Positions 2,549 to 49,012 of a stretch of DNA of 64,000 nucleotides are shown piece after piece (within the stretch, counting starts at the first letter, position 1; each line of letters opens with the position of its first letter). The DNA comes from Jiella avicenniae (GTDB lineage Bacteria > Pseudomonadota > Alphaproteobacteria > Rhizobiales > Rhizobiaceae). The notes beneath the pieces were generated by a model. That model did no database searches, was not told the origin of the DNA, and saw nothing but the letters and a program-made list of their open reading frames with translations. The stretch lies in the NCBI RefSeq assembly GCF_021390325.1, contig NZ_JAJUWU010000024.1, positions 1-64,000 on the forward strand. The letters run 5' to 3'. Position numbers and translations under genes: made by a program.

Positions 2549-3526
2549 TCACATCCCGCTGGAGAGATCGGCGACGAGTCGTTCGCGGAGCGCGGTCGAC
2601 ACGGTGGGCTTCTCGCCGAACCAGCGTTCGAAGCCGGGGACGGCCTGGTGGAGCAGCATGCCGAGCCCGTCGGCGAATCGCAGCCCGCGTGCCTCGGCCG
2701 CTCTCAGGATCGGCGTCATCAGCGGCGTATAGACGATGTCGGTCACCATCGCCTCGTCGGGCAAGGCCGACAGATCCGGCAGCTTTTCCGGAAACCAGTC
2801 GGGCGTCTCGTCGTCGGGATCCTTCTCCGGGACCGGCACGGTGTTGACCAGAAGATCGGCCCGCGCCAGCAATGTGGCCTGCATCTCCTCCCCATGGCCG
2901 GCGACCCGACCGGGAAACGGACGGTCGAAACGGCCGGCGAGGTCCGCGGCATTGGCGACGGTGCGGTTGACGATCTCGACCCGCTTCACTCCGCGCGACA
3001 GGAGCGCATGGACCACGGCCCGCGCCGCGCCGCCGGCGCCGAGCACGACCGCCGTCTCGGCCCCCGCCCAGCCGGCGAGCCGCTCGTCGAGATTGGCGGC
3101 AAATCCATGGGCGTCGGTGTTGCCGCCGACGAGCCGGCCGTCCTCGAACCACAGCATGTTGACCGCGCCGATCGCCTCGGCCTCACCATCCCGTCGCTCG
3201 GCGGCGCGGAAGGCGGCGAGCTTGTGCGGGATCGTCACGTTGCCGCCGACGAAGCTCTTGTCTGCGAGGGTTTCGAAGAACTCGGCGATCTCCTCCGGCG
3301 GCACGCCCATGCGGACATAGGAGCCGGGAAGGCCGAGTTCCCTCAGCCAGGTCGCATGGATCAGCGGCGAGCGGGAATGCCAGACCGGCCAGCCGGTGAT
3401 GAAGGCTTTCGGTCCCTCGACCGTCACCGGACGGTGATTCGGATCGAAGATCGAGCCTTCGCCCCGCGGCCGCTCGGCGCCGCTGACATAGGGCGCCGGC
3501 GTCCATTCGCCGCTTTCGTCAGCCAT
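2549..3526 (-). CDS. aroE: Shikimate dehydrogenase
   Basis: AroE reduces 3-dehydroshikimate to shikimate with NADPH in the aromatic amino acid pathway. Visible marks are the substrate-binding SRSPLIH near residue 51, NVTIPHK with the catalytic Lys, GNTDAHGF, and the dinucleotide-binding GAGGAARA. At 325 residues it is about 35 longer than usual because of an N-terminal extension; a later start would be needed for a standard length, but this ATG overlaps the end of maf by 8 bp, which favours it. It sits between maf and the NTF2-like gene in a leftward operon. Confidence 0.93.
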
Positions 3527-4118
3527 CGATTTCCCCCCTCCTTCTCAGTTCCTTCAAGAGCGGCAGGATCGGCAGGCCGATGATGGTGAAATAGTCGCCA
3601 TCGATCGCCTCCATCAGCTGCACGCCTTCCCGCTCGATCTGATAGGCACCGACGCTGGTCAAGGCCCGGCCTCCCACCCCGGCGAGATAGCGCCCGACGA
3701 AGCCGGGATCGAGGTCGCGCAGGGTGATCCGCGCCACCGCGACGTGCCGCCAGACGACGGTGCCGTTCTCGACCAGCACGACGGCGCTGTTCAGGGTGTG
3801 CGTCCGTCCCGACAGCGAGAGAAGCGTGCGACGCGCCTCCTCCATGTTGGCGGGTTTGTGAAACACCCGGTCGTCCAGCGCCAGGGTCTGGTCGGCACCG
3901 ATGACGATCTCGCCCGGATGGCTCTCCGAAACGTTCGTCGCCTTCGCCTCGGCCAGAACCTGCGCGACGTCTTCGGGCGTCGCGCCGCTGCCGAGAAGCG
4001 GCGCCTCGACCGCCCGCTCGTCGAGTTCGGCGGGACGGACGGTGAAGTCGACGCCGGCATTCTTCAACAGTTCGCGGCGATGGACGCTGCCGGAGGCGAG
4101 GACGATGCCTTTGGCCAT
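3519..4118 (-). CDS. maf: Maf-family nucleotide pyrophosphatase
   Basis: Maf proteins hydrolyse non-canonical or methylated nucleoside triphosphates. The 199-residue product shows the N-terminal signature [12 protein letters not shown], the catalytic Asp in GADQTL, and the C-terminal [24 protein letters not shown]-type region split over the expected positions. The ATG at 4118 is chosen because it places the signature at residue 6 and has an AAGG element about 10 bp upstream; an upstream ATG at 4163 is possible. It is the first gene leftward from the proposed origin. In many relatives ppsR (DUF299) lies between hemE and maf; it is absent here. Confidence 0.92.
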
Positions 4119-4653
4119 GGATGGGACCTTTTTAATAAAATTTTCATCGATCCGGTGCTTCATAGCGGCATGCCCCCTCCGACCCAAGTGGGGCCGGATT
4201 CGATTCGCGCGGCCGACACAAGCTGCGGCGGACGATTCGCCCGGGATTCTCCGCCCCCTGTGGGCAAGGCCGGGGTAACCTCGCATGCCTTTCGAAAGCG
4301 AAGCGGGGCCTGTTCATCGAACCGTCGTTTATCCACATTTCGAGGCGCGGCTCCCCCTGTGGACCGGCTCGAGCGAATCTGTGGCGAAACCCGGTCAAGT
4401 CCTCGCCGCAAACGAGTCGATCGTTCCGCCTGAACGCACAGCGTGCGTCGTCGGCAAGTGGTTTCGGGCACTGGCAAATCGCCGTTCGTCCCCGATTTTC
4501 GTCTTCTGCCGCCGCACGCCGCGGCGAGGCGGTTCGGCCGCGACCGTCCGGTCGGCCCCGAATTGGCGCGAGATGTGAATCCCGGCTATCCACCGAGTCA
4601 TAGAATCATAAATCTCCTTTCGAAGAGATTCTTGAAGATTTGGGAGAAGGCCG
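4119..4653. other. Candidate chromosomal replication origin (oriC) between maf and hemE
   Basis: This 535 bp gene-free segment lies between leftward maf and rightward hemE, the position of the chromosome origin in Caulobacter and in studied Rhizobiales. It contains a perfect DnaA box TTATCCACA (4329-4337) and weaker boxes at 4259-4267, 4358-4366 and 4586-4594. Ten GANTC sites (CcrM methylation motif) start at 4197, 4202, 4234, 4245, 4375, 4414, 4577, 4595, 4603 and 4627; fewer than two are expected by chance in a stretch this long. A TTAA-N7-TTCA element at 4132-4146 is one base from the CtrA consensus, and an AT-rich stretch precedes hemE. Origin function is inferred, not shown. Confidence 0.7.
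4329..4337 (+). promoter_or_regulatory. Perfect DnaA box
   Basis: The 9-mer TTATCCACA equals the strong DnaA box consensus. It stands out in this GC-rich context and lies in the middle of the gene-free segment between maf and hemE, about 320 bp before the hemE start. Confidence 0.8.
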
Positions 4654-5676
4654 GTGACGGAACGGCGCAAGCTGATGAGGGTACTCGAGGGGGAGACGGT
4701 GTTTCCTCCGCCGGTCTGGCTGATGCGTCAGGCGGGCCGCTATCTTCCCGAATATCGGGAAACCCGGGCGAAGGCCGGGGGCTTCCTCGAACTGTGCTAC
4801 GACCCGGACTTCGCCACGGAGGTGACGCTGCAGCCGATCCGCCGGTTCGGCTTCGACGCGGCGATCCTGTTCTCCGACATCCTCGTCATTCCCGACGCGC
4901 TCGACCGCGGGCTGCACTTCGTCGCCGGCGAGGGGCCGAAGCTGACGCCGCTGCGCGAGGACGAGGTGGCGAGCCTCGATCCGAGCCGGGCCGAGACCCA
5001 TCTCGCGCCGGTGATCGCCACCGTGGCGAGACTGCGCGAAGAGCTGCCGGAAGAGACGACGCTGATCGGTTTCTGCGGCGCGCCCTTCACGGTCGCGACC
5101 TACATGATCGCCGGCCACGGCACGCCCGACCAGGCGCCGGCGCGGCTGTTCGGCTATCGCCACCCCGAGGCGATGGAAAAGCTGCTCTACCTCCTCGCCG
5201 AGATGAGCGCCGACTATCTGATCCGCCAGCTCACCGCCGGGGCCGACTGCGTCCAGATCTTCGACAGCTGGGCGGGGGTCCTCGACGAGGCCTGTTTCGA
5301 AGCTTACGCGATCGGGCCGGTTCGCCGCATGGTCGAGAAGATCCGTGCCGCGAGGCCCGACGCGAAGATCATCGGTTTCGCCAAGGGGGCCGGGGCGTTC
5401 CTCTCGACCTACCGCGAAAAGACCGGCGTCGACGCCGTCGGCCTCGACTGGCAGATGCCGATGGACTTCGCCCGCAGCATCCAGACCGGCGGGGCGGTGC
5501 AGGGCAATCTCGATCCGCTGCGGCTGATCGCCGGCGGCAGGGCGCTCGACGAGGGCGTCGACCGGATCCTCGAACATCTGGGCGGGGGCTCGCTGATCTT
5601 CAATCTCGGCCACGGCATCACCCCCGACGCGCCGATCGAGCACGTCGAGGCGCTGCTGAAGCGGATTCGGGGGTGA
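4654..5676 (+). CDS. hemE: Uroporphyrinogen decarboxylase
   Basis: HemE decarboxylates the four acetate side chains of uroporphyrinogen III to give coproporphyrinogen III in heme synthesis. The 340-residue product is the usual length and begins with the hallmark [15 protein letters not shown] near residues 20-34; the second signature GFCGAPFT is near 142. The start is a GTG preceded by GGGAGAAGG 4 bp away. It is the first rightward gene after the proposed origin. hemJ, another heme-pathway gene, follows 460 bp downstream. Confidence 0.97.
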
Positions 5677-32800: not shown

Positions 32801-33958
32801 ATGGATGCAGAAGATCTGAAGCTTCTTTCCAATGAGAAAATCCCGGAAAGTGTGCGAACCACAATAGCCGAGAAAATATTGGGGGCGTCGGACCGTGCGG
32901 CTGAGCGGGACATAGAGACTAAGCGCCTAGCACAAGAAAAGCAGAAACTACTGTGGAACACACCATTAGTCGCTGCTTTGGCGGGACTTCTGACCTTATC
33001 CGCGACATTTATTTTTAATCGCATCACTGCAAGCGACGAAACAGATAGAACGATAACTGTTGATCAAGTACGAGCCGAGCTTAAAAAGAGCGAGGCGCGA
33101 CTAACGCAAGAGTTAGAGGTCGCAGCCAGCGAAAATCTCGCCAAGCTTGAGGCTAAAGCTAGAGAACGCGAATTCCAATATGAAATAGTTCGCTCAGAGC
33201 TTGAGAAACAGGGAAAGACGAATGCCGAGCGCGCGGCAGTGTTGCTCTTCCTGGTGCGAGCTGGTGTTCTCAACGCCTTGGATCGTGACGAGCTAGTAAT
33301 TATGGCCAGAGAACAGCAGGAAAACCCTGAGAAGACAATCATCCCAGAGCTTTCGGTCGGTGGACCTGGTCGAGTTGGTCGCCAACTATTATTTGAAAAT
33401 GGCTCAACGCTAACCTATTCTTTCCTGGCGGAACCCACGGAAGCAACTCGAGAGGCGGTCGAGGCGGCTGCGAACGAGTGGTCCCAGCATATGAACCTCA
33501 CCATTGTCTCCACTGACGACCCTAGCGATGCTGTCATTCGAATAATGCCTAGGAGCAATAGAAATTCGGCGATGGTCGGACGAAATGCTCTTAACGTGCC
33601 CTCCGATAATCCTACTATGTGGTTGCAGACAAATGTTCCCCAAAGAACTGCCCTCCACGAATTTGGCCATGCGTTGGGACTTGTGCATGAGCATCAAAAT
33701 CCACGTAGCCGCATATCCTGGAACTACGAGACTACTTATGATTTTCTCCGTAGTAGGTATGGCTGGACTAGGGCAATGATTGACAGCGAACTACTGTCAA
33801 AAAGTAACTCTTACCCATGTGTTCGAGATTTTGATCCACACTCTATTATGATGTTCAGTATACCATCCGAGATAACGACAGATGGCGCTTCGTACAGGCA
33901 AGCGAACACGTTATCCGAATCTGATAAACTATGCGCTTCGCAGATGTATCCAAAATGA
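32801..33958 (+). CDS. Membrane-anchored coiled-coil protein with a metzincin-type zinc protease domain
   Basis: The 385-residue product has a charged N-terminal region (1-50), one membrane segment (about 53-73), a coiled coil (about 85-140), a short helical region (141-172) and a zinc protease domain (about 190-385). The zinc site is HEFGHALGLVHEH, giving ligands His286, His290 and His296 with catalytic Glu287. The Met-turn is SIMMF at 348-352, as in metzincins. Positive charges before the membrane segment suggest the protease faces the periplasm. Base and codon use (many TTA, ATA, AGA, AAA) differ sharply from all neighbours, pointing to transfer. The ATG at 32801 lacks a strong ribosome site. 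Substrate and role unknown. Confidence 0.85.
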   Translation: MDAEDLKLLSNEKIPESVRTTIAEKILGASDRAAERDIETKRLAQEKQKLLWNTPLVAALAGLLTLSATFIFNRITASDETDRTITVDQVRAELKKSEARLTQELEVAASENLAKLEAKAREREFQYEIVRSELEKQGKTNAERAAVLLFLVRAGVLNALDRDELVIMAREQQENPEKTIIPELSVGGPGRVGRQLLFENGSTLTYSFLAEPTEATREAVEAAANEWSQHMNLTIVSTDDPSDAVIRIMPRSNRNSAMVGRNALNVPSDNPTMWLQTNVPQRTALHEFGHALGLVHEHQNPRSRISWNYETTYDFLRSRYGWTRAMIDSELLSKSNSYPCVRDFDPHSIMMFSIPSEITTDGASYRQANTLSESDKLCASQMYPK

Positions 33959-40907: not shown

Positions 40908-42347
40908 ATGCATTCCGACACCATCGCCGCCTTGTCATCCGGCGCGCTGCCCTCCGGCGTCGCGGTCGTCAGGGTCAGCGGGCCGGACGCGGCGGGCGCG
41001 CTGACGCGGCTTTGCGGCGCGGTTCCGCCCGAGCGCCGGGCCAGCCTTCGCACCTTCCGGGACTCGGCCGGCGCCGTCATCGATCGCGGCATCGCGATCT
41101 TCTTTGCCGGGCCGAACACCGTCACCGGCGAGGACATCGCGGAGTTCCACCTGCATGGCGGTCCGGCCGTCGTCGCCGCCTGTCTGGAAGCGATAACCGC
41201 GACCGTCGGCACACGGCTGGCCGAGCCCGGGGAGTTCACCCGGCGGGCCTTCGAGAACGGCCGCATCGATCTCACCGAGGCGGAAGGCCTCGGCGATCTC
41301 ATCGCCGCCGAGACCGAGGGCCAGCACCGGGCGGCGATCCTCCAGGCGGGCGGCGCGCTGCGGGCGCTCTACGAGGGCTGGATGGCCCGGCTCACCGAGG
41401 CGCGGGCGCATCTCGAAGCCTCCTTCGACTTCTCCGACGAGGGCGACGTCGGCGACGACGTCGCGGCGACGGTGCACGAGCGGGTGGCCGAAATCGTCGC
41501 CGAGATCCGCGACCATCTCTCCCGCGCCGATCGCGGCGAGATCCTGCGCTCCGGCTACAAGGTCGCCATCGTCGGGGCGCCCAATGCCGGCAAGTCGAGC
41601 CTCCTCAATGCCCTGGCCGACCGGGAGGTGGCGATCGTCACGGAGGTTCCCGGCACCACCCGCGACGTCATCGAGGCGACGCTCGATCTCGGCGGCATCC
41701 CGGTGCGGTTTTCCGACACGGCCGGGATTCGCGAGACTTCCGACAAGGTCGAGGCGATCGGCGTCGAGCGGGCGCGCGAGGTGATGGCGAAGGCCGATCT
41801 CGTCCTCGCTCTGGTCGACACCCAGCAGGGGCACGGCCCCCTCGCCCGCTTCACCGAGCTTCTGTCTCACGTGAAACATCCGATGATGCTGGCCGCCGAC
41901 GCCTCGCTCGAAGACCTCGCCGAAGGCACCGCCAGGGGCCGGCGCCGCATCCTCACCGTGCGCACCAAGGCCGACCAGCCGGCGCCGAGCGGCCTCGCCG
42001 CCCGCTTCGGCAACGAATGGACCGACTTCCGCTTCGACTTCGTCGTTTCGGCGAAGACCGGGGCGGGACTCGACGCTCTGACGGACAGGATCGCCGAACT
42101 CGCCGCGGCGGCCGCAGGTCTCGAAGGCGGCGGCGAGGCGGCGATCCCGCTGCGCACCCGGCAGCGCGACCTCGTCACCGAAACCCGCGCCATCCTCGAA
42201 GAATTCATCGGCAATTCGGCCCTGCCCGCGGAAGTCGGCGCCGAAACCCTGCGCCGGGCCTCCGACACGCTGGGACGGCTCACCGGCACGGTCGGCGTCG
42301 AAGACCTCCTCGACGTGATCTTCTCGCAGTTCTGCATCGGCAAGTGA
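40908..42347 (+). CDS. mnmE: tRNA modification GTPase MnmE
   Basis: MnmE, with MnmG, adds the carboxymethylaminomethyl group to U34 of certain tRNAs. The 479-residue product shows the N-terminal folate-binding domain, a central G domain with GAPNAGKSSLLN (P-loop, about residue 226), DTAG in RFSDTAGIRE, and the C-terminal CIGK that is essential for activity. An AAGGA precedes the ATG. A near-perfect parS site (41863-41878) lies in its coding sequence. mnmG is 2 kb downstream. Confidence 0.96.
   Translation: MHSDTIAALSSGALPSGVAVVRVSGPDAAGALTRLCGAVPPERRASLRTFRDSAGAVIDRGIAIFFAGPNTVTGEDIAEFHLHGGPAVVAACLEAITATVGTRLAEPGEFTRRAFENGRIDLTEAEGLGDLIAAETEGQHRAAILQAGGALRALYEGWMARLTEARAHLEASFDFSDEGDVGDDVAATVHERVAEIVAEIRDHLSRADRGEILRSGYKVAIVGAPNAGKSSLLNALADREVAIVTEVPGTTRDVIEATLDLGGIPVRFSDTAGIRETSDKVEAIGVERAREVMAKADLVLALVDTQQGHGPLARFTELLSHVKHPMMLAADASLEDLAEGTARGRRRILTVRTKADQPAPSGLAARFGNEWTDFRFDFVVSAKTGAGLDALTDRIAELAAAAAGLEGGGEAAIPLRTRQRDLVTETRAILEEFIGNSALPAEVGAETLRRASDTLGRLTGTVGVEDLLDVIFSQFCIGK
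41863..41878. promoter_or_regulatory. parS site inside mnmE
   Basis: TGTCTCACGTGAAACA matches 15 of 16 positions of TGTTTCACGTGAAACA. It is one of three strongest sites. Confidence 0.75.
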
Positions 42348-46294: not shown

Positions 46295-47063
46295 TCGTCC
46301 CGGCCGCTCGCGCGCCGGAACGGGGGAGCGAACCACGCGACCCGCGGGGAACGGCGACCTCTCCTCCCGTCTCGCCGCTTCATCCGGCACGGGCGAGCGA
46401 CCGCCGAAACCGCTCGATCTGGCCGATATTGCGCTGCAGCAGGCGGCCGGGCGCACCTGGCTTCGCGAGCATTTCGCCGTTTCACGTGAAACAATGGAGC
46501 GGCTGGACGTCTACGTCGCCATGCTGACGGATTGGCAGACGCGGATGAACCTCGTGGCGCCCTCGACGCTGGGCGACGTCTGGCGGCGGCACGTCGCCGA
46601 CTCGCTCAGCCTCGAACGGCTGCTTCCGGAGTTCGCCCGATCGGTCGATCTCGGCTCCGGCGGCGGCCTGCCTGCTCTGGTGATCGCCGCCTGCCGGCCG
46701 GACCGCGCGGTGGACATGGTGGAATCGAGCCGCAAGAAGGCGGCCTTCCTGGCTGCGGCCTGCGCTGAGATGGGCGTTACCGGCTCGGTCCATCCGATCC
46801 GGATCGAGACCGCCGGCGCGGTTCTGGGCCGCGCCGAGGTCGTGACCGCCCGCGCATTGGCGTCGCTGGACGATCTTCTCGCCATGGTGGCCCCGCATAT
46901 TTCACGTGAAACACCCTGCTTCTTCCAGAAGGGGCGCAGTCATGAACAGGAAATCGCGGCGGCGACTGCCAATTGGAAATTCACCATGGTAATTCATGAA
47001 TCACAGGTGGAGGCTGATTCGGTCATCCTCGAAGTCGCCGGGATCACGCGGCGCCAAGGCTGA
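46284..47063 (+). CDS. rsmG: 16S rRNA (guanine-527-N7) methyltransferase
   Basis: RsmG methylates G527 of 16S rRNA; loss gives low-level streptomycin resistance. The 259-residue product has the SAM motif [15 protein letters not shown] near residue 120 and the core VSRETMERL at 65-73. The first 55 residues are a Pro/Arg-rich extension with no family counterpart; a later start may be used, but the ATG at 46284 overlaps the mnmG end. Two of the strongest parS sites lie inside, at 46478 and 46898. Confidence 0.92.
46478..46493. promoter_or_regulatory. parS site 1 inside rsmG
   Basis: CGTTTCACGTGAAACA matches 15 of 16 positions of the palindrome TGTTTCACGTGAAACA. It is one of the three strongest sites and lies 0.7 kb before parA. 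Confidence 0.85.
46898..46913. promoter_or_regulatory. parS site 2 inside rsmG
   Basis: TATTTCACGTGAAACA matches 15 of 16 positions of the palindrome TGTTTCACGTGAAACA, 420 bp after the first rsmG site and 245 bp before parA. Confidence 0.85.
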
Positions 47064-47142
47064 GACGCCCCGATCGACGGGCGATGGCGCGATCTGCGGC
47101 CTGCGGCGCGACCGACACCTCGAAAGACATGGAATGCAGCCG

Positions 47143-47946
47143 ATGGACGTGGCGGAGCCTATGCGGATCATCACGATCGCCAACCAGAAGGGCGGTGTCG
47201 GCAAGACGACCACCGCCATCAATCTCGCCACGGCCCTCGCGGCGATCGACAAGCGCGCCCTCCTGATCGATCTCGATCCTCAGGGCAATGCCTCGACCGG
47301 GCTCGGCATCGACAAGGAAGATCGCGACCTCTCCTCCTACGACGTCCTGAAGGAAGACGCCTCGATCAGCCAGGCGGCGATGCGCACGGCCGTTCCCAAC
47401 CTGTCGATCATTCCCTCGACCATGGATCTTCTCGGCCTGGAAACGGAGATATCCGGCGTCCATGGCCGGGCCTACCGGCTGCGCGACGCCCTGCATTTCC
47501 ACCAGCAGGCGGGCGCCGACTACGATTTCGTGCTGGTCGACTGCCCGCCGTCCCTCAACATCCTGACGATCAACGCCATGGCCGCCGCCGACGCCGTGCT
47601 GGTGCCGCTGCAATGCGAGTTCTTCGCTCTGGAGGGTCTGTCGCAGCTCCTGCAGACGGTCGAGCAGGTGCGCGACAGCCTCAACCCGATGCTCGGCCTG
47701 CACGGCATCGTCCTGACCATGTATGACAGCCGCAACAATCTCGCCGCCCAGGTGGTCCGCGACGTACGCTCCTATATGGGCGAGCACGTCTACGACACGG
47801 TCATCCCCCGCAACGTCCGGATCTCCGAGGCGCCCTCCTACGGCAAGCCGGCGATCCTCTACGACCTCAAATGCCCCGGCAGCCAGGCCTATATCCAGCT
47901 CGCCTCGGAGGTGATCCGGCGCGAGGAAAGGCTCGTCGCCGCATGA
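47143..47946 (+). CDS. parA: Chromosome partitioning ATPase ParA
   Basis: ParA binds DNA in its ATP form and pulls ParB-parS complexes during chromosome segregation. The 267-residue product has the deviant Walker A motif ANQKGGVGKTTTAINLA near residue 13 and DLDPQGNAS. Start candidates are 47134, 47143 and 47161; 47143 places Walker A at the usual distance. It lies 80 bp after rsmG and 76 bp before parB. Confidence 0.96.
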   Translation: MDVAEPMRIITIANQKGGVGKTTTAINLATALAAIDKRALLIDLDPQGNASTGLGIDKEDRDLSSYDVLKEDASISQAAMRTAVPNLSIIPSTMDLLGLETEISGVHGRAYRLRDALHFHQQAGADYDFVLVDCPPSLNILTINAMAAADAVLVPLQCEFFALEGLSQLLQTVEQVRDSLNPMLGLHGIVLTMYDSRNNLAAQVVRDVRSYMGEHVYDTVIPRNVRISEAPSYGKPAILYDLKCPGSQAYIQLASEVIRREERLVAA

Positions 47947-48022
47947 GGCGGTCGGGCGTGACGGACGGGACGGCGGAAGCGCAGCGAGCGCGGCCGGCGA
48001 GACGGAAGATGGGAAGAGGCCA

Positions 48023-49012
48023 ATGACCGAAGACAGATCGCGCCAGAGACTGGGACGGGGCCTCGCCTCGCTGATCGGCGGCGGCGCCTCCGGCCCGTCC
48101 CGCCCGGTGCCGGGCTTCGATCCGCAGCCGGCCGCCCCCTCGGTCGCGCCCGAGCGCTCGGTCCCGACCGCCAGCATCGCCCCCAATCCGCACAATCCGC
48201 GGCGCCATTTCCGCGAGGAGGAACTCTCAGAACTCGCCGCCTCGATCCGCCAGCACGGCGTCGTCCAGCCGCTTCTGGTGCGCCCGCTCGGCGGCGATCG
48301 CAGCCGGTTCGAGCTCGTCGCCGGCGAACGCCGCCTGCGTGCGGCGATCCTCGCCGGGCTGGCGGAGGTGCCGGTCGTCCTGCGCGAACTCAACGATCGC
48401 CAGTCGCTCGAAATCGCCATCATCGAGAACGTCCAGCGCGCCGATCTCAACGCCATCGAGGAGGCGCTGGGCTATCAGTCGCTGATCGACGAGCATGGCT
48501 ATACCCAGGCCGATCTCGCCGAAATCCTCGCCAAGAGCCGCAGTCATGTCGCCAACACCTTGCGGCTGTTGAAGCTGCCGCCCGAAGTGCGCGCGATGGT
48601 CGAGGAGGGCACCCTTTCGGCCGGTGCCGCCCGCACGGTCGTGACCGCCGATGATCCGGTCGCTCTCGCAAGGCGGATCGCCTCCGAGAACCTTTCGGTG
48701 CGCGAGGCCGAGGCCCTCGCCCGCGATCCGGCAGCGGCCGAAGAGGCGGCCTTGCCGAAGCCCGGAACCCGCCGCCGCGGCCGCAGACCGGCCGAGGCTG
48801 CCGACGAGGCGAAGAGCGATGCGATCCTCGCCTATGAGCGTCGGCTGCGCGAGGCGACCGGCTTCGACGTCTCGATCGCCGTGTCCGGTGGGCGGCCGAT
48901 GGTCCAGTTCGACCTCGATCGCGAGGCCGATCTGGAGGCCCTCCTCCAGCGCCTCGAGCACCATGGCGGTTATACGGCGGCATTCACGGGTCCGCGTCTG
49001 CGCTCGCTTTGA
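48023..49012 (+). CDS. parB: Chromosome partitioning protein ParB
   Basis: ParB is a CTP-dependent clamp that loads at parS. The 329-residue product has the N-terminal ParA-contact region (QRLGRGLASLIGG), the CTPase motif GERRLRAAILAG near residue 98, the ENVQRADLNAIEEA segment, a helix-turn-helix near 167-186 (QADLAEILAKSRSHVANTLR) and a C-terminal dimer domain. It should act on the parS sites spread through this window. Confidence 0.97.
   Translation: MTEDRSRQRLGRGLASLIGGGASGPSRPVPGFDPQPAAPSVAPERSVPTASIAPNPHNPRRHFREEELSELAASIRQHGVVQPLLVRPLGGDRSRFELVAGERRLRAAILAGLAEVPVVLRELNDRQSLEIAIIENVQRADLNAIEEALGYQSLIDEHGYTQADLAEILAKSRSHVANTLRLLKLPPEVRAMVEEGTLSAGAARTVVTADDPVALARRIASENLSVREAEALARDPAAAEEAALPKPGTRRRGRRPAEAADEAKSDAILAYERRLREATGFDVSIAVSGGRPMVQFDLDREADLEALLQRLEHHGGYTAAFTGPRLRSL

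Follow-up and report, generated by a model that had tools for sequence, protein, structure and literature searches.

The window, which is the whole 64-kb stretch of DNA analysed here, carries close to its left end an intergenic gap between a leftward maf gene and a rightward hemE gene, and parS-like sites together with parA and parB farther to the right. The features considered below are as follows, with conservation given for ten Jiella genomes.

3519 to 4118, minus strand: maf, the leftward flanking gene (Pfam PF02545, E 4.5e-46), which starts at 4118
4119 to 4653, no strand: maf-hemE intergenic gap, proposed as oriC from its flanks (Pfam), parS/parAB, GC skew, DnaA cores and AT peak
4132 to 4146, plus strand: CtrA-like site with one mismatch; 8/10 genomes have such a site at this place, with one mismatch or none
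4197 to 4249, no strand: maf-proximal GANTC group; 4197 and 4202 in 10/10, 4245 in 9/10 and 4234 in 2/10 genomes
4259 to 4267, minus strand: predicted weak DnaA box with two mismatches; TGTG core in 10/10 genomes
4329 to 4337, plus strand: predicted perfect DnaA box TTATCCACA; TCCACA in 10/10 genomes, the whole box in 5/10 rows
4358 to 4366, minus strand: putative weak DnaA or G-box-like site; TGTG core in 10/10 genomes
4375 to 4418, no strand: interior GANTC sites 4375 (abutting a TGTG core; 9/10 genomes) and 4414 (2/10 genomes)
4380 to 4388, minus strand: predicted weak DnaA box with two mismatches; TGTG core in 10/10 genomes
4574 to 4582, minus strand: predicted weak DnaA box with two mismatches, overlapping GANTC 4577; TGTG in 10/10 genomes
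4577 to 4631, no strand: hemE-proximal GANTC group; 4577 in 9/10 genomes, 4595, 4603 and 4627 in 10/10
4586 to 4594, plus strand: predicted weak DnaA box CTATCCACC with two mismatches, abutting GANTC 4595; CTATyCACy in 10/10 genomes
4595 to 4642, no strand: AT-rich candidate unwinding element, named for its AT content and its adjacency to a DnaA-like box
4654 to 5676, plus strand: hemE, the rightward flanking gene (Pfam PF01208, E 6.4e-110), with a GTG start at 4654
41863 to 41878, no strand: parS-like site with one mismatch
46478 to 46493, no strand: parS-like site with one mismatch
46898 to 46913, no strand: parS-like site with one mismatch
46996 to 49012, plus strand: parA and parB (AAA_31 and ParB_N/HTH_ParB domains)

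HemE shares 89-94% identity with its counterparts in five named Jiella species and 81-82% with those in Fulvimarina, the next closest genus, and the host is therefore regarded as a Jiella-like bacterium. The genus set comprises ten Jiella genomes, namely the present one and nine others (L018 was dropped as identical to L006); maf adjoins the gap in all ten loci, and the aligned gaps show a mean column identity to the window of 0.62. With a GC content of 0.61, the gap surpasses the window average in AT content, which is 0.327.

A preliminary description had assigned to this gap a perfect DnaA box, three weaker boxes, an AT-rich stretch, a near-CtrA site and ten GANTC motifs, all of which were recovered, with the weaker boxes (two mismatches to TTWTNCACA) numbering four. 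Only one other copy of the perfect box exists in the 5.17-Mb assembly, and two further two-mismatch matches fall within the A/T run at 4129-4138. As expected of an oriC, predicted DnaA boxes are present (one perfect and four with two mismatches); the TGTG or CACA cores at 4259, 4329, 4358, 4380 and 4574 are invariant across the ten genomes, and the variable C/T (the first y) of CTATyCACy at 4586 occupies position N of the DnaA consensus. The site at 4358-4366 has two mismatches to the G-box motif. The AT-rich stretch holds the 40-mers of highest AT content in the window (70%, starting at 4600-4602), tied with one at 33384. The latter and another at 33822 are among the AT-richest 40-mers of the window, and the segment 32001-34000 around them, with a GC content of 0.539 against roughly 0.67 in its neighbourhood, is possibly foreign DNA. 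Inspection by eye of the AT peak of the gap revealed no DnaA-trio array in register; TAG at 4601-4603 and TAA at 4609-4611 are out of register, and no DnaA-trio is therefore claimed. The near-CtrA site is TTAATAAAATTTTCA, with one mismatch, where 0.06 such sites would be expected per origin, and the best IHF matches in the gap have two mismatches. The gap of J. sonneratiae (L006, L018) has a perfect CtrA-type site, TTAA-N7-TTAA, at offset 282, which is missing from the other Jiella gaps except for a one-mismatch form in L008.

The chromosome origin of Sinorhizobium lies beside hemE. Passages of an earlier study (PMC1914354) treat such origins as established for Caulobacter and as predictions for Rickettsia and its relatives, and the present gap, as judged from the Pfam assignment of its flank, occupies the same place. 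The parS consensus at no more than one mismatch is found at three places in the whole assembly, all of them in the window at 41.9-46.9 kb, in a region with mnmG, rsmG, parA and parB at 37-42 kb from the gap. The gap and the parS-like sites share a contig in 7/10 Jiella genomes and lie on separate contigs in the other three. Among the genomes with a shared contig, the extremes are J. pelagia, whose closest parS-like site lies approximately 4 kb from hemE, and G003, where it lies approximately 58 kb away, and the origin region has therefore been rearranged within the genus. In Fulvimarina pelagi (L023, at about 2492), a parS-like sequence, CGTTTCACGTGAAACA, lies approximately 480-495 bp upstream of hemE, that is, beside or within the origin region.

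The GC skew of the window itself is noisy, and the contig begins 4 kb to the left of the gap; the skew, proposed earlier as a check, was taken from the finished chromosome of J. pelagia. Among twenty 12-kb samples of that chromosome, the cumulative skew is minimal at the 2.06-Mb sample, and the next sample, at 2.34 Mb, is positive; within a contiguous stretch of 180 kb (2.072-2.252 Mb) the minimum falls at 2,153,397, which is 16 kb from the corresponding gap at 2,169,036-2,169,616. The AT peak of the locus lies within 500 bp upstream of hemE in 10/10 Jiella, 28/28 family and 17/18 named loci, in 60/72 CcrM-positive and 16/27 CcrM-negative loci of the class, and in 0/46 loci of an outgroup consisting mostly of Gammaproteobacteria. 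The earlier proposal of an origin is thus borne out by parS/parAB, the skew of a finished relative, conserved DnaA cores, the AT peak and synteny, and the gap is very probably the origin, oriC, of the main chromosome of this Jiella-like bacterium.

That the origin should instead lie elsewhere, the gap being merely a conserved intergenic regulatory region, is very improbable. The truncation of the left arm by the contig end, together with the noisy skew of the window, leaves some room for it, as do the 16-kb offset of the J. pelagia minimum and the second perfect DnaA box, on contig C30. The C30 box was rejected as an origin: it stands close to one end of a contig of 7.6 kb that offers no comparable, origin-like surroundings, whereas parS/parAB, the switch of skew, the AT peak, the DnaA cores and synteny all point to the gap.

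The ten GANTC sites start at 4197, 4202, 4234, 4245, 4375, 4414, 4577, 4595, 4603 and 4627, within 435 bp, and in the Jiella gap they form a maf-proximal group (4197-4249), a hemE-proximal group (4577-4631) and two interior sites. Under a first-order Markov model fitted to the gap, 3.7 sites are expected on average, and ten or more arose in 4 of 2000 simulations. The 64-kb window as a whole contains 91 GANTC, whereas 100 dinucleotide shuffles average 396; the motif is therefore avoided in the rest of the window, where no 435 bp contain more than 4. Sampling of the genome at twenty places, 20 kb each (400 kb in all), gave 1.37 GANTC per kb and a maximum of 7 per 435 bp, which is also the maximum for the 463 kb obtained when the rest of the window is included. 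A stretch upstream of dnaA, outside these 463 kb, reaches 8. Thus, the gap is the densest place for GANTC among the sampled 463 kb and the dnaA upstream region, which does not prove that it is the maximum of the genome.

Eight of the ten sites have stayed at their positions in nine or all ten of the Jiella genomes, and at 4577 the tenth genome has a GANTC shifted by one base. The middle base of site 4595 is G, C or T and that of 4197 is T or C, and the four fixed bases of 4595 are unchanged in all ten genomes. Overall, the fixed bases of GANTC are retained in 79% of the other rows, compared with 20% for column sets of the same shape away from GANTC; the former value was reached in 0 of 100,000 draws, although the rows share ancestry and the columns are not independent. 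This pattern of conservation makes it very likely that the sites in the gap have been selected as such, namely as CcrM methylation sites. A special geometry between GANTC and TGTG was also considered. In Jiella, abutting and overlapping arrangements number 9 and 10, against 1.2 and 2.2 in relocation controls, and in the family set 5 and 3, against 2.3 and 5.9; such a geometry was rejected as a general feature, since the excess in Jiella reflects one shared ancestry and the other sets disagree.

Relative to the rest of the locus, the 500 bp before hemE are enriched in GANTC 10.5-fold in Jiella (10 loci), 8.5-fold in the named set (18 loci) and 7.2-fold in the family set (28 loci), the latter two being mostly Hyphomicrobiales, 4.5-fold in CcrM-positive (72 loci) and 1.8-fold in CcrM-negative (27 loci) members of the class, and 1.1-fold in the outgroup (46 loci). 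The family set consists of 28 of 30 loci, the window's own and G007 having been removed as belonging to the same genus. The named set consists of L021-L037 and L044, among which L036 and L044 are of doubtful organism assignment; L023 and L130 share their upstream sequence, so that the two sets hold 45 distinct loci of 46. For the class set, hemE was found in 163 of 193 genomes searched, and 100 were taken (72 CcrM-positive and 28 CcrM-negative), with the ambiguous G228 skipped. Left out of the enrichment were L038-L043 and L045-L048 (other alphaproteobacterial or mixed MAGs, with 0-7 GANTC per 500 bp), L051 (no upstream sequence) and L210 (short upstream sequence).

Seven control palindromes of the same composition range from 0.6- to 4.6-fold upstream of hemE in Jiella and from 0.75- to 2.6-fold in the family and named sets. 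Ranked by frequency together with these seven, GANTC stands strictly first in 10/10 Jiella, 23/28 family and 14/18 named loci, in 28/72 CcrM-positive and 9/27 CcrM-negative loci, and in 1/46 outgroup loci. These comparisons bear on the notion that the density of GANTC arises as a side effect of base composition or of the sequence of DnaA boxes, without selection on the methylation site, which is very improbable. The AT-rich composition of the gap would favor it, as would the general intergenic enrichment of GANTC in Alphaproteobacteria described in passages of PMC8116508 and the rise of AGNCT (2.3-fold) and CTNAG (4.6-fold) in Jiella. Yet every control palindrome remains below the 10.5-fold of GANTC, the local Markov simulations hardly ever reach ten, and at 4595 the free base varies while the fixed bases stay.

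Whether the enrichment depends on CcrM was assessed across the class. CcrM-positive loci have a mean of 3.4 GANTC per 500 bp and CcrM-negative loci 2.0 (72 vs. 27 loci, p 0.005), and the two differ also in the excess of GANTC over the control motifs (72 vs. 27 loci, p 0.029). When only loci with maf nearby are compared, the means lie close together, at 3.6 and 2.8 (61 vs. 10, p 0.195), and when GcrA-positive genomes are taken out of the negatives, 3.6 and 1.7 (61 vs. 6, p 0.026); six of the 27 CcrM-negative calls have GcrA. Absence of CcrM or GcrA here means absence from the matched lists, and for several genomes 10 of a larger number of candidates were scored, so that some negatives may be misses. 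Low GC content and lost synteny tend to accompany the absence of CcrM, and the dependence on CcrM is thus suggestive only. Nor is a GANTC-rich hemE upstream region a universal or class-wide rule, since 19 of the 72 CcrM-positive genomes have one GANTC (12) or none (7) in the 500 bp before hemE, and five Robiginitomaculum MAGs, which belong to the excluded rows L038-L043 and L045-L048, have 0-3 per 500 bp.

Within the 500 bp, GANTC peaks in the last 100 bp before hemE in the family and named sets and is spread across the whole length in the 72 CcrM-positive class loci. Much of both the family and the named set shares the hemE-proximal group, which reads CACM-GASTC-wwAGAA and stands some 65 bp ahead of hemE: the strict form is found in 9/10 Jiella, 17/28 family and 6/18 named loci, and in 0/72 CcrM-positive, 0/27 CcrM-negative and 0/46 outgroup loci. 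With relaxed flanks, all 42 matches, one sequence being counted twice, carry GAGTC, GACTC or GATTC; the element, CACM/AACA-N5-wwAGAA, was chosen after inspection of the alignment, and its counts are descriptive. The distal GANTC pair occurs in Jiella and in close relatives in the family and named sets. The arrangement GANTC-N3-GANTC was rejected as a special element: it occurs 13 times in the genome, as compared with 4 occurrences of the backwards pattern, and is not clearly enriched because about 10 are expected from the rate of GANTC.

The genome encodes a CcrM-type methylase (N6_N4_Mtase and RAMA domains, Pfam) and GcrA, and a search for SeqA (PF03925) gave no match in it, whereas the E. 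coli control matched. On contig C48 (L315:3034-3364), dnaA is preceded by a gene named by eye as rhodanese-like, and the region upstream of that gene contains eight GANTC in 435 bp; the region upstream of dnaA in J. pelagia has seven, from 3,180,399. When the dnaA loci of all ten Jiella genomes were compared, as segments of about 3.5 kb with truncated ends, the maximum per 435 bp ranged from 3 to 8. The cluster at dnaA is thus less constant than that at the origin. A GANTC pair of the proximal type also precedes both the dnaA operon and a dksA-like gene (named by eye), the latter copy being GAGTCTTAGAATC on contig C16:43067-43079, a near-match of the proximal pair of the origin, approximately 90 bp before the gene. 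On contig C13, from 497, seven GANTC in 435 bp lie upstream of a YbjN-like gene, again named by eye, and repABC, considered as the cause of this cluster, was rejected by eye on account of that position.

Taken as a whole, the locus is best read, with a probability of about 0.6, as a DnaA-dependent origin in which GANTC sites have been selected as CcrM sites that report the state of replication and tune the segment 4574-4642. As its anatomy suggests, the conserved TGTG/CACA cores at 4259-4594 would serve as loading sites for DnaA, which would open the AT-rich stretch at approximately 4595-4642 beside hemE. The GANTC sites, very probably kept by selection for methylation as their conservation indicates, would most likely report whether the region has been replicated, being fully methylated before firing and hemimethylated until CcrM acts late; this timing is taken from work on Caulobacter and Agrobacterium. 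Passages of PMC11514494 place the action of CcrM late in the cell cycle and, in Agrobacterium, report lower average methylation of GANTC near ori1 than near the terminus. The state of methylation may then tune events in 4574-4642, the segment shared by a DnaA box, the candidate unwinding element and the promoter region of hemE; GcrA and RNA polymerase would mediate this effect, to which altered DnaA binding or melting might contribute. An action on the transcription of hemE and maf has somewhat less than an even chance, and a direct tuning of origin opening is rather unlikely.

The timing of initiation by CcrM, which the preliminary description had suggested, is accordingly treated as an unproven hypothesis. 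In the available passages of PMC3973325, Caulobacter lacking ccrM shows a normal DNA-content profile after rifampicin and controls initiation normally despite several GANTC in its origin, and in those of PMC11514494, depletion or overproduction of CcrM in Agrobacterium changes ori2 and has no clear effect on the DnaA-dependent ori1. Both observations, in which comparable origins fired normally under perturbed CcrM, speak against a direct action of methylation on initiation.

A live alternative is that the gap is a true origin in which the GANTC sites serve only divergent, methylation-responsive promoters of hemE and maf under the control of GcrA and CcrM, with no role in initiation; this has a substantial chance, though well short of even. 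Most of the sites lie within approximately 130 bp of the start of maf or hemE, where promoters would be (four at no more than 77 bp from the hemE start and four at no more than 131 bp from the maf start), and the peak in the last 100 bp before hemE in the family and named sets accords with such a role. So do the similar pairs before the dksA-like gene and the dnaA operon, which are ordinary promoters, the published negative results for CcrM on initiation in Caulobacter and at Agrobacterium ori1, and the preference of GcrA for methylated DNA and its contact with RNA polymerase, as given in passages of PMC3667746. Promoters alone would not account so readily for site 4375, kept in 9/10 genomes within the DnaA-core region, for 4577 and 4595, which overlap and abut DnaA-like boxes, for 4603 and 4627 inside the AT peak, or for the 72 CcrM-positive class loci, in which GANTC is distributed along all 500 bp instead of gathering near the promoter.

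It is also tempting to speculate, unlikely as it is, that a SeqA-independent methylation gate operates here, in which CcrM sites in the junction of DnaA box and unwinding element at 4574-4642 would, through a long hemimethylated period, hinder re-opening until the late action of CcrM. If so, the gate would have evolved convergently with the Dam sites in the oriC of E. coli, which are likewise paired with a cluster upstream of dnaA, and origins with few GANTC at the junction would not show gating. Whether CcrM acts directly on DnaA-dependent initiation has been answered in the negative for Caulobacter, and for Agrobacterium ori1 no effect was detectable, according to the passages cited above. 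Jiella would be well suited to a renewed look at this question, because many CcrM sites are fixed in its origin, probably including the opening site; moreover, the drift of free bases beside frozen fixed bases defines the exact positions and provides a matched control at each.

Among known systems, the gap shares with Cori of Caulobacter and other hemE-linked origins the position of hemE on one side, DnaA boxes and an AT-rich stretch (PMC1914354, passages), and several GANTC have been noted in print for the Caulobacter origin (PMC3973325, passages). The other flank in Caulobacter, as in Rickettsia, is reported to be a COG1806 gene, whereas here it is maf, and against the five CtrA sites and one IHF site reported for Caulobacter stand a single CtrA-like site with one mismatch and IHF matches no better than two mismatches. 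Ten GANTC sites, mostly fixed in place, further distinguish the gap from Caulobacter-type origins. What appears to be new is this conserved placement of GANTC in the Jiella origin, of which a search of open-licence papers, covering titles, beginnings of abstracts and selected passages, showed no account for hemE-linked origins; otherwise, the gap seems to be a well-conserved form of a known type of origin.

In E. coli, eleven GATC at oriC are accompanied by a cluster at the dnaA promoter (PMC10073500, passages), much as ten GANTC at the gap are accompanied by eight upstream of dnaA, but the motif and methylase there are GATC and Dam rather than GANTC and CcrM, and no SeqA, the sequestration protein of E. 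coli, was found in the present genome. Agrobacterium ori2, with its GANTC-rich repABC, resembles the gap in having GANTC in and around an alphaproteobacterial origin, and an effect of CcrM has been shown for it; by contrast, ori2 is of the plasmid-like RepC type, and CcrM is reported to affect it via transcription of repABC and not as a DnaA origin (PMC11514494, PMC6090056, passages of both). Promoters controlled by CcrM and GcrA likewise have GANTC nearby, and both proteins are encoded here; the difference is that the putative promoters of the gap flank an origin and that the cluster is far denser. In addition to the CcrM-type enzyme, the genome contains a second N6_N4 methylase on contig C48:74560-75300, beside a gene named by eye as helicase-like, which is probably located on a mobile element.
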